In this document: piece after piece, positions 21,151 through 54,009 of the stretch | Layout of the letters: every line of letters begins with the position of its first letter | How positions within the stretch are numbered: position 1 is the first letter of the stretch | Assembly (NCBI RefSeq): GCF_017744695.1 | Contig: NZ_JAGIAS010000006.1 | Coordinates: 1-64,000 of the forward strand | Reading direction: 5' to 3' | Source of the DNA: Dyadobacter sp. | Lineage (GTDB): Bacteria > Bacteroidota > Bacteroidia > Cytophagales > Spirosomataceae | DNA length: 64,000 nt | Program-made: the position numbers and the translations under genes | Notes under the pieces: model-generated | Seen by the model: only the letters and a program-made list of their open reading frames with translations | Databases searched by the model: none | Told to the model about the DNA's origin: nothing

Positions 21151-21225
21151 GGAGGTTGTAGCTCAGTTGGTTAGAGCGCCAGATTGTGGTTCTGGAGGTC
21201 GCGGGTTCGAGACCCGTCTCCCTCC
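21151..21225 (+). tRNA. tRNA-His (anticodon GTG)
   Basis: The cloverleaf has the extra G-1 pairing with C73 that marks tRNA-His, anticodon stem CCAGA/TCTGG with loop TTGTGGT (anticodon GTG), and T loop TTCGAGA. Positions 5:68 (T-C) and 6:67 (T-T) of the acceptor stem do not pair, while the other six pairs do. CCA is not encoded. It has its own promoter and terminator, and a decayed integrated element follows it. Confidence 0.9.
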
Positions 21226-21250
21226 CTTGAAAAAAGTTCAAAGTCAAACA

Positions 21251-38065: not shown

Positions 38066-38166
38066 GGTTCGGGGCCATTTGTTAACCGCAAGGTACGAAG
38101 TTTTCTCTAAGCAAATTTTAATGTAATATTTACGCGCTTTGTTGCCCGCTTATTGTAATTTTTGCT

Positions 38167-38174
38167 TACATTTG
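38167..38174 (+). promoter_or_regulatory. Bacteroidota -7 promoter element of the his operon
   Basis: TACATTTG fits TAnnTTTG exactly. The predicted transcript start is about 5 nt downstream, at 38179-38181, which is the ATG of the leader peptide, so the leader may be translated from a leaderless transcript. Confidence 0.65.
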
Positions 38175-38178
38175 TGCC

Positions 38179-38241
38179 ATGTTAACAGCTGAAACATATC
38201 ATTTGCATCATAGCCTCTTGGCTTTCGGACGTCTAGGGTGA
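38179..38241 (+). CDS. his operon leader peptide (20 aa, His codons)
   Basis: ATG at 38179 opens a 20-codon frame ending at TGA 38239-38241, with codons CAT TTG CAT CAT at 38200-38211: three His codons in four. Ribosome stalling there when charged tRNA-His is scarce would change folding of the RNA up to the terminator at 38293-38320, as in classic his attenuators. The peptide is MLTAETYHLHHS followed by LLAFGRLG. It is too short for ordinary gene calling. tRNA-His and the his genes are both in this window. Confidence 0.7.
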   Translation: MLTAETYHLHHSLLAFGRLG

Positions 38242-38292
38242 TGTGTTTTTGCAAGTAGTGTTGTAATAAGGTTGAATACATAGTATCCCAGA

Positions 38293-38320
38293 AGCCCGAT
38301 TGTTAAGATCGGGCTTTTTT
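38293..38320 (+). terminator. Attenuator terminator upstream of hisH
   Basis: AGCCCGAT (38293-38300) pairs with ATCGGGCT (38308-38315), loop TGTTAAG, followed by six T. It sits 27 nt before the hisH ATG. A competing antiterminator is possible: TCT-A-GGG (38232-38238) can pair with CCCAGA (38287-38292) at the foot of this stem. Confidence 0.7.
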
Positions 38321-38346
38321 GTTGTCGATTTCAAGCACTGAATGGT

Positions 38347-38934
38347 ATGAAAACCGTCATTATCAAATACAATGCAGGCAATGTGCAGTCGGTTATGTAC
38401 GCGCTCGACCGCATTGGCGCAAGCTACCTCTACACCGACGACGAAGCCGAGATCCGCTCAGCCGACAAGGTGATTTTTCCGGGTGTAGGTGAAGCCAGCA
38501 CCACCATGAGCTACCTGCGCAATGTAGGCCTGGACAAGGTGATTCCTTCCCTCAAACAACCGGTATTCGGAACTTGCGTGGGCATGCAGCTCATGTGCCG
38601 TTTTTCGGAAGAGAACAATACCGAATGCATGGGTATTTTCGATGTGGACGTGAAGCGCTTCCCCGCCGATGCGGGCCTGAAAGTGCCGCATATGGGCTGG
38701 AACAATATCTCCGGCTACCAATCGCCGCTGACCGCAGGGCTTCCCGACAATGCGTACGTCTATTTCGTACACAGCTATGCGGCACCGATCTGCGATTATA
38801 CCGTTGCCAGCTGCGATTATGCGCTGCCATTCAGCGCGATGCTACATAAGGACAACTTTTACGCGGCCCAGTTCCACTGCGAGATCAGTGGCAATGCAGG
38901 GCAGCAAATCCTCGAAAACTTTCTCAAACTCTGA
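38347..38934 (+). CDS. hisH: Imidazole glycerol phosphate synthase, glutaminase subunit
   Basis: A 195-aa class I glutamine amidotransferase. The nucleophile elbow is GTCVGMQLM (catalytic Cys, about 79) and the His-x-Glu dyad is in QFHCEISG near the C terminus (HCE instead of the more common HPE). It supplies ammonia to HisF for making imidazole-glycerol phosphate and AICAR. It is the first gene of hisH-hisA-hisF-hisIE, behind the attenuator. Confidence 0.94.
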   Translation: MKTVIIKYNAGNVQSVMYALDRIGASYLYTDDEAEIRSADKVIFPGVGEASTTMSYLRNVGLDKVIPSLKQPVFGTCVGMQLMCRFSEENNTECMGIFDVDVKRFPADAGLKVPHMGWNNISGYQSPLTAGLPDNAYVYFVHSYAAPICDYTVASCDYALPFSAMLHKDNFYAAQFHCEISGNAGQQILENFLKL

Positions 38935-38955: not shown

Positions 38956-39678
38956 ATGATCCAGATTATCCCCGCTATCGACCTGATTGAAGGCAAATGC
39001 GTCCGCCTCACCCAGGGCGATTATGGTCAGAAGAAGATTTACAATGAAAACCCGCTGGAAGTAGCGCTGCAATTCGAAGATGCGGGCCTGAAAAGACTGC
39101 ATTTGGTGGACCTCGACGGTGCCAAGGCCAAAAAGGTCATCAATTGGAAAGTGTTAGAGAAAATTGCTTCCAAGACTTCGCTGCACGTGGATTTCGGCGG
39201 AGGCGTGCAATCGGAGGACGACATTAAGATCGTGTTCGAAAGTGGTGCGAAGCAGGTTACCGGCGGGAGCATTGCCGTGAAACAACCGGATTTGTTCGAG
39301 CATTGGCTTAAAATTTACGGCGGCGACAAGATTATTCTCGGTGCGGATGCCAAAAATGAGAAGATCGCCGTGAGCGGCTGGGAGGAAGGTACCGCTATAT
39401 GGGTGTACGATTTTGTGGAAGAATATGTCGAAAAGGGGGTGAAATATACGATCAGTACCGATGTGGCCAAAGACGGCCTGTTGCAGGGACCTTCTTTTGA
39501 TTTATATAAAAACCTGCAAGACAAATGTCCCGACCTGAATATCATCGCCAGCGGTGGCATTGCAGGTATCGAGGATGTGGAGAAACTGGCGGAAATGAAT
39601 ATCTACGGCGTGATCATCGGGAAGGCTATTTACGAAAACCGGATCAGCCTGGCCGATTTACAGCGTTTTTCAGTTTAA
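38956..39678 (+). CDS. hisA: Phosphoribosylformimino-5-aminoimidazole carboxamide ribotide isomerase
   Basis: A 240-aa (beta/alpha)8 barrel. The N-terminal [19 protein letters not shown] carries the catalytic Asp and first phosphate region, and [14 protein letters not shown] has the second catalytic Asp (about 170). [12 protein letters not shown] is the phosphate-binding loop near the end. It isomerises ProFAR to PRFAR, the substrate of HisF. It lies 21 nt after hisH. Confidence 0.95.
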
Positions 39679-39681
39679 AAT

Positions 39682-40455
39682 ATGCTTACGAAACGAATCA
39701 TTCCCTGTCTGGATGTAAAAGATGGCCGGACGGTCAAAGGGGTCAATTTTGTGAACCTGCGCGATGCGGGCGACGCCGTGGAACTGGGTGCGATGTATGC
39801 GGCCCAGGGAGCCGACGAGCTGGTGTACCTCGACATTACGGCCACTGTCGACGGGCGTTCGACATTTATCGACCTTGTCCGCAGAGTAGCGCAGACCATT
39901 AATATCCCTTTTACCGTCGGTGGGGGCATTTCCTCGATCGCGGACGTGTCGGCGCTCCTGCATGCGGGCGCGGACAAGGTATCGATCAACTCGGCGGCGG
40001 TGCGTAATCCGGACCTGATCAATGAGCTGTCGCTCGAATTCGGCAGCCAATGTATCGTTGTCGCAATTGATACGCGCTATGTCGAAACGGAAAATGGTTT
40101 CGAGCACATCGTGCACACGCACGGGGGCAGGAAAGCGACCGAAATCCGGTCCATACCTTGGGCGAAAGAGGTGGAAGAACGCGGAGCAGGCGAAATCCTG
40201 CTTACCTCGATGGATACCGACGGCACGAAGAACGGATTTGCATTGGAACTGACTGCAACCATTTCAGGTAATGCAAATATTCCGGTAATCGCTTCCGGCG
40301 GTGCGGGTAATATGGCGCATTTTTACGATGTATTTACAGAAGGGAAGGCCGACGCCGGGCTGGCAGCAAGCATTTTCCACTTCCGTGAAATCGATATCCC
40401 GGATTTGAAAGAATACCTTAAAAACAAAGACCTGCCGATCCGGATGACCCGGTAG
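39682..40455 (+). CDS. hisF: Imidazole glycerol phosphate synthase, cyclase subunit
   Basis: A 257-aa barrel. [19 protein letters not shown] (Asp11 and the first phosphate loop), [11 protein letters not shown], and [11 protein letters not shown] (the second catalytic Asp, about 179) are typical of HisF. It joins HisH and closes the imidazole ring. Three bases separate it from hisA, which indicates tight coupling. Confidence 0.95.
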
Positions 40456-40547: not shown

Positions 40548-41189
40548 ATGAGCGAGACGTTTTCATCCATTGATTTTAATAAATCGGCCGACGGACTGGT
40601 GCCGGCTGTTATCCAGGACGTAAATACCGGCAAGGTGCTGATGCTCGGCTATATGAACGCCGAAGCACTGGAAGTTACCAGAAAGCAGGGAACTGTTACC
40701 TTTTTCAGCCGCAGCAAGCAGCGCTTATGGACGAAAGGGGAAACGTCGGGCAATTTTCTGTTTGTAAATGACATCGCTGCAGATTGCGACGGCGACACAT
40801 TACTCATTAAGGCTACGCCTGCGGGGCCGGTTTGCCACACCGGCGCGGATACCTGCTTTGGGGAAAAAAATAGCCAGCCTGAAATCTCGGACACACGTAC
40901 AGGTGAAGCCGCATTCCTGAATTACCTGCAAAAAAACGTGATCCGCGAAAGAAAACTCAACCCGTCGGACTCGTCTTATACAACGAGCCTTTTTAAAAAA
41001 GGGATCAATAAAATCGCACAGAAAGTAGGGGAAGAGGCAGTCGAAGTTGTCATTGAATCGAAGGATAATGACGACAATCTTTTCAAGAACGAAGTGTCGG
41101 ATTTGCTGTTCCACCTGCTCGTTTTACTGGAACAAAAAAACATTGACTTAGATGAGGTAATTGACGTACTTCGTAGCCGTCACCAATAA
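40548..41189 (+). CDS. hisI: Bifunctional phosphoribosyl-AMP cyclohydrolase / phosphoribosyl-ATP pyrophosphatase
   Basis: A 213-aa HisIE. The N-terminal HisI domain (about 1-110) has TLFSRSKQRLW-like FFSRSKQRLWTKGETSGN and the metal site DCDGDTLL with VCHTGADTC. The C-terminal HisE domain (about 115-213) has the helical NTPase signature (KVGEEAVEVVIESKDND, LLFHLLVLLE). It performs steps 2 and 3 of histidine synthesis. It lies 92 nt after hisF. Confidence 0.94.
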   Translation: MSETFSSIDFNKSADGLVPAVIQDVNTGKVLMLGYMNAEALEVTRKQGTVTFFSRSKQRLWTKGETSGNFLFVNDIAADCDGDTLLIKATPAGPVCHTGADTCFGEKNSQPEISDTRTGEAAFLNYLQKNVIRERKLNPSDSSYTTSLFKKGINKIAQKVGEEAVEVVIESKDNDDNLFKNEVSDLLFHLLVLLEQKNIDLDEVIDVLRSRHQ

Positions 41190-52701: not shown

Positions 52702-54009
52702 TTATAACCTCACAATCTCCGCGCCAATCGCGTTTAAACGCGTGTCGATGTTCTGGTAACCGCGGTCGATTTGCTCGATATTGTCGATAATACTCACGCC
52801 TTTGGCCGACATTGCTGCGATCAGCAATGCAACCCCGGCGCGAATGTCAGGCGAAGTCATGCGAATGCCGCGGAGCTGCGTCTCGCGGTTGTGGCCGATT
52901 ACGGTGGCACGGTGCGGGTCGCAAAGGATAATTTGCGCACCCATTTCGATCAGTTTATCCACAAAGAACAAGCGGCTTTCGAACATTTTCTGGTGAATCA
53001 GAACGGTTCCCTGTGCCTGCGTGGCCGTCACGAGCACGATACTCAGCAAGTCGGGTGTGAAGCCGGGCCAGGGGGCATCTGCTACGGATAGCGTCGAACC
53101 GTCGAGGTAGTTTTCAATGCGGTAGCGTTCCTGTGCGGGGATGAAAATGTCATCACCCCGGAATTCCATTTGAATACCCAATCTTTTGAAAACATCGGGA
53201 ATAATGCCCAGCTCCGGAATGCGGCAGTCTTTGATGGTAATCTCCGATTGCGTCATGGCTGCGAGGCCGATGAAGCTACCGATTTCGATCATATCCGGGA
53301 GCATAGTATGCTCGGTACCTTTTAGTTCGCTTACGCCTTCGACTACCAGCAAATTGGAAGCGATACCCGAGATTTTAGCACCCATGCGGTTCAGCATTTT
53401 ACAAAGCTGCTGCAAATAAGGCTCGCAGGCTGCATTGTAAATGGTGGTTGTGCCTTCGGCCATCACGGCAGCCATCAGAACGTTGGCCGTACCGGTTACC
53501 GAAGCCTCGTCCAGGAGCATATAAGTGCCTTTCAGGTTGGCAGCATCCACGCGGTAGAACCCGCCGTCTTCTTCATCATAACTGAATTCCGCACCCAGTT
53601 TCTCGAAACCCAAAAAATGGGTGTCCAGTCTTCGCCGGCCGATCTTGTCGCCACCGGGGCGAGGGATGCGTCCTTTGCGGAAGCGCGCCAGCATAGGGCC
53701 GAGCAGCATCACCGAGCCGCGCAATGCAGCCGCTTTCTGACGGAACGAGTCCGATTCGAGGTAATCGAGGTTGATATCGTCGGCTTCGAAGCGGATGGAA
53801 GTTTCGCTCAGCCTTGTGCGGCGTACACCCAGATCACCCAGGAGGTTGATCAGCTGGTTTACGTCACGGATATTCGGGATGTTGTGGATCGTAACGGGCT
53901 CTTTGGTCAGGAGCACTGCACAGATGATCTGCAATGCTTCGTTTTTGGCGCCTTGCGGCACGATTTCACCCTTGAGACGACGATCCCCGGTAATTTTGAA
54001 TGATGCCAT
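52702..54009 (-). CDS. murA: UDP-N-acetylglucosamine 1-carboxyvinyltransferase
   Basis: 435 aa, EPSP-synthase-like fold. It transfers enolpyruvate from PEP to UDP-GlcNAc, the first committed step of peptidoglycan synthesis. KNEALQIICAVLL (about 22-34) is the substrate Lys/Asn region and DIRAGVALLIAA the end of domain 1. The catalytic loop reads RPGGDKIGRRRLD, so Asp121 replaces the usual Cys (Cys115 in E. coli). This exchange is known in other natural MurA enzymes and blocks fosfomycin attack. Downstream in the minus unit after DUF4290. Confidence 0.95.
   Translation of the reverse strand: MASFKITGDRRLKGEIVPQGAKNEALQIICAVLLTKEPVTIHNIPNIRDVNQLINLLGDLGVRRTRLSETSIRFEADDINLDYLESDSFRQKAAALRGSVMLLGPMLARFRKGRIPRPGGDKIGRRRLDTHFLGFEKLGAEFSYDEEDGGFYRVDAANLKGTYMLLDEASVTGTANVLMAAVMAEGTTTIYNAACEPYLQQLCKMLNRMGAKISGIASNLLVVEGVSELKGTEHTMLPDMIEIGSFIGLAAMTQSEITIKDCRIPELGIIPDVFKRLGIQMEFRGDDIFIPAQERYRIENYLDGSTLSVADAPWPGFTPDLLSIVLVTATQAQGTVLIHQKMFESRLFFVDKLIEMGAQIILCDPHRATVIGHNRETQLRGIRMTSPDIRAGVALLIAAMSAKGVSIIDNIEQIDRGYQNIDTRLNAIGAEIVRL

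Follow-up and report, generated by a model that had tools for sequence, protein, structure and literature searches.

A predicted ribosome-mediated histidine attenuator with a putatively leaderless leader peptide upstream of hisH in Dyadobacter and related Spirosomataceae

A candidate histidine attenuator precedes hisHAF(IE)

The intergenic stretch upstream of hisH in a Dyadobacter-like genome of 7.8 Mb (Spirosomataceae, Bacteroidota) very probably encodes a ribosome-mediated histidine attenuator of hisHAF(IE), in which transcription would begin at the A of the leader ATG and the leader peptide would be made from a leaderless mRNA. We base this reading on the analysis of one 64-kb stretch of DNA (64,000 nt, hereafter the window) and on comparison of its leader with those of related genomes. 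The leader is followed by hisH, hisA, hisF and hisIE in that order, and the gene on the far side of the intergenic stretch is divergent. The first-pass annotation had already read the leader as a His attenuator, a reading that is supported by the conserved His-rich ORF, the terminator and the spacing of the promoter box described below. His attenuation in Bacteroidota can be compared cleanly through this leader, which no Rfam family matches at threshold and which includes an invariant RNA segment.

Table 1. Positions of the leader elements and of the his genes in the window
Feature	Coordinates	Strand	Description or basis
−7 promoter box TACATTTG (consensus TAnnTTTG)	38167..38174	+	final G 4 nt 5′ of the leader ATG
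Predicted +1, first base of the leader ATG	38179..38179	+	placed from the box at −12 to −5 in excerpts of PMC6847099 and PMC9723704
Leader peptide ORF MLTAETYHLHHSLLAFGRLG*, 20 codons	38179..38241	+	conserved; His codons 38200-38202, 38206-38208, 38209-38211
Predicted 1:2 hairpin, leader 5′ part with stop-codon region	38188..38252	+	folding, pair counts with mixed controls
Predicted 2:3 antiterminator hairpin, 38225-38252 with 38271-38299	38225..38299	+	overlaps the terminator 5′ arm; cognate pairing across genera
46-nt core	38244..38289	+	identical in 30/30 same-genus loci; apical part ~38253-38270
Intrinsic terminator hairpin 38290-38318 and T run to 38321	38290..38321	+	terminator search, folding, alignment
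hisH	38347..38934	+	TIGR01855; first gene 3′ of the leader
hisA	38956..39678	+	TIGR00007
hisF	39682..40455	+	TIGR00735
hisIE	40548..41189	+	NF002747

A uniquely His-rich short ORF lies close to a −7 box

The leader ORF contains the motif His-Leu-His-His. No other of the 762 ATG ORFs of 8–30 codons in the whole window (388 on the + strand and 374 on the − strand) places three His within four codons. TACATTTG is the sole + strand occurrence of TAnnTTTG between the divergent gene and hisH (38066-38346). The first-pass annotation had named this frame, this box and a terminator hairpin before hisH, and all three are present (Table 1). By eye, a −33 TTTG was not evident at the usual distance from the box. 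A scan for E. coli-type promoters gave 7 sites vs 1.1 expected, 2 of them on the + strand within the leader; these were set aside because Bacteroidota use another promoter type. On the 5′ side of the box, AAGCAAATTTTAATGTAATATTT at ~38109-38131 is well conserved in many loci of the genus and is perhaps part of the divergent gene’s promoter. The pattern TAHHTTTG-N4-ATG occurs twice in the window, at the his leader and at 53991 (TAATTTTGAATGATG), the latter being a possible second leaderless start.

The leader is conserved across the genus and 19 further genera

The first-pass annotation had proposed comparing the leader in related genomes, and this comparison found the His codons, the terminator hairpin and the box upstream of hisH in 30/30 loci of the same genus, with the same layout in 19 further genera of Spirosomataceae, giving 20 genera with the window’s own. 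A covariance model of the leader, built from the 25 distinct sequences among the 30 genus loci (4 of the 34 genus genomes supplied none), matched 58 genomes of the 200 from the family at E ≤0.001, including all 34 of the genus at E ≤1e-35; hisH itself was found in at least 196 of the 200. Outside the genus, the best matches were in G042, G015, G024, G003 and G011 (E ≤1.4e-10) and in G017 (3.8e-6). Those in G015, G024, G003, G011 and G017 lie directly 5′ of hisH, the exception being G042, whose match sits close to a contig end and whose hisH is on a different contig. A further 18 non-genus genomes matched weakly, at E values from 2e-6 to 9e-4. The window’s own genome also holds a second weak match outside the window (G000:C16:53689-53772, − strand, E 4.9e-4).

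We then collected 90 stretches upstream of hisH, comprising the 30 genus loci and 60 from other genera that were hand-chosen for spread among the matches listed; 89 of them end at hisH and one (L064) is the G042 match. A promoter-blind rule picked a short His-rich ORF in 77 of the 90, and the 13 stretches in which the rule found no leader ORF include two short contig ends (L069 and L159). The distance from an exact TAnnTTTG to the ATG was 4 nt in 66 of these 77 ORFs, 3 nt in 7 (all within the genus) and 5 nt in 1, and the box was absent in 3. Of the three boxless cases, the rule had picked the wrong ORF in L027, where the true leader has the 4-nt spacing; L162 has a box with one mismatch 4 nt from the ATG; and the ORF picked in L166 is not leader-like. 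A second set, chosen by the box (last letter G or A), a spacing of 3–5 nt and His codons, and so biased towards those spacings, comprised 76 leaders from 20 genera, with spacings of 4 nt in 68, 3 nt in 7 and 5 nt in 1. These 76 leaders carry 2 to 5 His each, and the His codons are retained across the 20 genera while the surrounding sequence changes. Among the 20 genera that have a leader, 19 show the 4-nt spacing, which makes leaderless initiation and attenuation testable together.

Fixed box spacing distinguishes the family from other His leaders

As a contrast set we took 40 Bacteroidota genomes from outside Spirosomataceae, drawn from 138 with HisG among 158 searched, and extracted the 1500 nt upstream of each HisG domain. 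Of the 20 contrast genomes that share the order or class (L091-L110), 19 had a His-rich ORF at most 480 nt upstream of hisG, and a plausible leader was present in three of the 20 more distant genomes (L122, L124 and L129), with one doubtful case (L117); a reverse-strand control gave 2 matches over all 40 genomes. These other leaders share the short His-rich ORF with the Dyadobacter leader but differ in promoter placement: when an exact box was sought within 45 nt of the 19 ORFs, only one (L110) had it at 4 nt, ten had it 7 to 33 nt away and eight had none. His leaders therefore seem widespread in the class, and a fixed spacing of 4 nt would mark out Spirosomataceae. In the window’s own genome, the 1500 nt before the hisG match held no His-rich short ATG ORF by the same rule. 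This hisG (L002) is on a separate contig, 3′ of a frame that by eye resembles histidyl-tRNA synthetase, and genes for His synthesis and charging may be co-transcribed there.

Box spacing predicts a start at the leader ATG

In excerpts of the F. johnsoniae study, the −7 element spans T-12 to G-5, and promoters counted as probable leave 4 or 5 nt between it and the start (PMC6847099), and excerpts of the F. psychrophilum study give the same box at −12 to −5 (PMC9723704). Given these two flavobacteria, the 4 nt between box and ATG would put +1 on the A of the ATG, where transcription should start. Such a start had been proposed in the first-pass annotation; the conserved spacing, mostly 4 nt, predicts it, and the position is to that extent a deduced one. 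Where the spacing is 3 nt, the A lies one base nearer to the box, and the C-A step there would make a start at the A plausible. The seven 3-nt loci, all in the genus, together with the 5-nt starts in the F. johnsoniae excerpts, mean that the usual start could instead fall one base inside the ATG, and these F. johnsoniae starts weaken the start-point argument a little.

The main alternative is an ordinary leadered ORF, in which the same His attenuator is transcribed from some bases 5′ of the ATG and carries a brief 5′ UTR. In Bacteroidota with mapped transcripts only a minority of mRNAs is leaderless, according to the excerpts, at 5.5% in F. psychrophilum (PMC9723704), with ~3.7% of 5′ UTRs shorter than 10 nt in B. 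thetaiotaomicron and 5′ UTRs longer than 10 nt in 87% of predicted transcripts of F. johnsoniae (PMC6847099), and 10 of the 11 hisG leaders of other families with an exact box have it 7 to 33 nt from the ATG. Against this stand the 4-nt distance that prevails among the promoter-blind ORFs of the family and the lack of any other + strand TAnnTTTG in the intergenic stretch, and we regard a leadered start as decidedly unlikely. Bacteroidota are described in the abstract of the F. johnsoniae study as largely without Shine-Dalgarno sequences (PMC6847099), and we suggest that an AUG as the first RNA base may be a simple way to load the first ribosome at once.

The leader is predicted to form a terminator and a competing antiterminator

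Between 38050 and 38400 the window has one terminator-like site (0.4 expected). A terminator-like hairpin lies 93–132 nt from the ATG in each of the 76 leaders, and its energy is at most −14 kcal/mol in 75 of the 76 vs 1 of 228 dinucleotide shuffles; the hairpin called in L080 is probably a downstream repeat. In the clade alignment the terminator is 100% paired and nearly invariant.

For the antiterminator, the first-pass annotation had paired TCT-A-GGG (38232-38238) with CCCAGA (38287-38292). Both segments occur there, but six pairs are too short, and they turn out to be part of a 23-pair helix, the best duplex of regions 2 and 3 in the window, of which 7 pairs are made with the 5′ arm of the terminator. 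In all 76 leaders, at least 4 nt of the terminator arm or loop are shared with the 2:3 duplex. This duplex outscores no fewer than 95 of 100 shuffles in 51 leaders, whereas the 1:2 duplex beats 95 of 100 in only 28. We also compared cognate pairing with cross-genus permutations, using one leader from each of 20 genera (L080, L162 and L027 were dropped beforehand). The mean cognate energy of 2:3 was matched by 0 of 20000 permutations, that of its terminator part by 2 and that of 1:2 by 7, so that cognate pairing across genera is on average better than random. Yet cognates seldom ranked first among the possible partners, doing so in 3 of 20 genera for 2:3, in 1 of 20 for the terminator part and in 2 of 20 for 1:2.

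Within the Dyadobacter clade (41 distinct leaders), none of the 23 pairs of 2:3 had a double change, which is not above shuffles; no compensatory change is seen there because the helix hardly varies. For 1:2, double changes occur at 8 pairs in the same 41 leaders, a count reached by 0 of 500 shuffles, but slid controls of this structure gave 5 to 10 such pairs. As the slid controls are similar, support for 1:2 comes from its higher score, cell counts and pairing percentage and not from the double-change count. The slid versions and the cognate ranks weaken the argument for the predicted structures a little.

The geometry of the leader is consistent with control by a stalled ribosome. Region 2 begins 15–20 nt after the final clustered His codon in the genus (median 16) and a median of 18 nt after it in the other leaders (range −2 to 22), a distance that, judged from sequence, fits the footprint of a stalled ribosome. 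In one locus (L268) the ORF stops early at a TAG while the bases of region 2 are kept, which indicates selection on the RNA there.

Among the 75 leaders folded (all but L080), 74 retained the terminator in the lowest-energy fold, even when region 1 was masked. As the terminator wins at equilibrium, antitermination would have to be kinetic, and known attenuators also switch kinetically. In partial folds, which stop short of the final arm, 5 nt or more of the terminator arm were sequestered in 75 of 75 leaders in the stalled state, in 59 of 75 in the free state and in 38 of 75 with the ribosome at the stop codon, so that the states are not cleanly separated. Our first idea, that antiterminator and terminator coexist, was replaced by the longer duplex; equilibrium folds still favour the terminator.

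Proposed mechanism

From these elements we infer the start point, the stalling and the read-through response of an attenuator that would sense charged tRNA-His and control hisHAF(IE), with a 143-nt leader RNA serving as leaderless mRNA for the His-rich peptide. When histidine is plentiful, the ribosome would reach the stop codon and cover region 2, and the terminator would form. When histidine is short, the ribosome would stall on His-Leu-His-His with its front edge just 5′ of 38225, leaving region 2 free to pair with region 3 before the 3′ arm of the terminator is made, and RNA polymerase would enter hisH. If the leader is not translated at all, the 1:2 hairpin would leave the terminator free to form.

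An invariant core separates the ORF from the terminator

The 46-nt core is identical in all 30 genus loci, compared with a mean identity of 0.39 at the four-fold sites of hisH over 435 pairs. A 19-nt part of it, TGTAATAAGGTTSAATACA, was found in 41 stretches of a GTDB contig collection, 36 of them from Dyadobacter, 2 from Telluribacter and 1 each from Rhabdobacter, Persicitalea and Arundinibacter. Dyadobacter fermentans and Persicitalea both belong to Spirosomataceae, Bacteroidota, and we take Telluribacter, Rhabdobacter and Arundinibacter to belong there as well. The proposed pairing seems to account for much of the core identity, though not obviously for that of the apical AAGTAGTGTTGTAATAAGG. 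Of this apical stretch, TGTAATAAGG is retained, together with the GTTSAATACA that comes after it, in five sister genera (g16, g25, g4, g12 and g18), and the TGTAATAAGGTTGAATACA region is unchanged in all aligned Dyadobacter leaders and nearly so in the five sister genera.

An invariance beyond the apparent demand of the pairing alone would suit a different reading, in which the short ORF is untranslated and a ligand- or protein-binding, riboswitch-like RNA controls the terminator. We consider this highly improbable, as His codons are kept over 20 genera amid changing sequence, the operon makes histidine and the stall geometry fits. Searches against Rfam also argue against it: at the curated thresholds the window gave only two tRNAs, with no T-box or known riboswitch family reaching its gathering score, and the best family for the leader by score was Trp_leader, at 21.4 bits vs a threshold of 41. 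An ordinary terminator next to a chance His-rich frame, with no regulation, is close to negligible as an explanation, given a frame that is conserved in every genus locus and in 20 genera and that has no equal in His content among the short ORFs of the window.

By analogy with rnTrpL/peTrpL of Sinorhizobium, we speculate, with low confidence, that the terminated 143-nt leaderless RNA of the proposed attenuator might have a second job, in which the apical TGTAATAAGGTTGAATACA and its neighbours would bind a protein, RNA polymerase or another RNA, and the RNA or the peptide would act in trans. If so, the leaderless start would ensure that the RNA is translated after release. As a trans-acting seed with perfect 12-nt targets the core was rejected. 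The complement of a 12-nt piece of it had 89 matches in 41 genus genomes, and subtracting a single match for each genome to account for the leader (confirmed by position only in genomes whose leader position was known) left 48 perfect targets vs 93 for a reversed control pattern, with no enrichment; only perfect targets were counted.

Relation to known leaders

His attenuators are of a known kind. Like the hisL leaders of E. coli and Salmonella, the Dyadobacter leader combines a His-rich leader peptide, competing hairpins and an intrinsic terminator before his genes. It differs in that hisL has a 5′ untranslated segment ahead of its ORF and hisG as the first gene, whereas in Dyadobacter the ORF seemingly begins at +1 and precedes hisH; and while hisL is the Rfam family His_leader, the Dyadobacter leader has no Rfam match at threshold. 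The closest parallel for the predicted 5′ end is S. meliloti trpL (rnTrpL / peTrpL), where, in excerpts of PMC7298713, rnTrpL starts with the ATG of its ORF and termination yields a small leaderless mRNA encoding a leader peptide. That system differs in concerning Trp, in belonging to Alphaproteobacteria and in the trans functions described there for RNA and peptide (PMC7298713, excerpts). Within Bacteroidota, excerpts of the F. psychrophilum study infer leader peptide attenuation upstream of amino-acid biosynthesis operons in general terms, in the same phylum and with the same promoter box, but its main text does not contain the word ‘histidine’ and the excerpts name no leaderless leader (PMC9723704). 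In the open-licence literature searched, including excerpts of PMC4833913, PMC8632094, PMC1262725, PMC9723704, PMC7366714, PMC6847099, PMC7298713 and PMC3890552, we came across neither a his attenuator described from Bacteroidota nor any leaderless leader peptide of that phylum. His attenuation and leaderless leader peptides are each known, and a leaderless His leader in Bacteroidota would be a combination new to the literature searched.

Further leaderless leader peptides did not emerge from the window’s own genome, where two pattern scans gave 33 and 45 matches vs 27 and 27 for the controls. The 60 loci from those scans (18 matches had no locus) included 7 short ORFs with a box 3–5 nt before the ATG, and by eye only the his leader among them was attenuator-like. 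The window also carries a tRNA-His gene (anticodon GTG) at 21152-21226 on the + strand, ~17 kb from the his operon.
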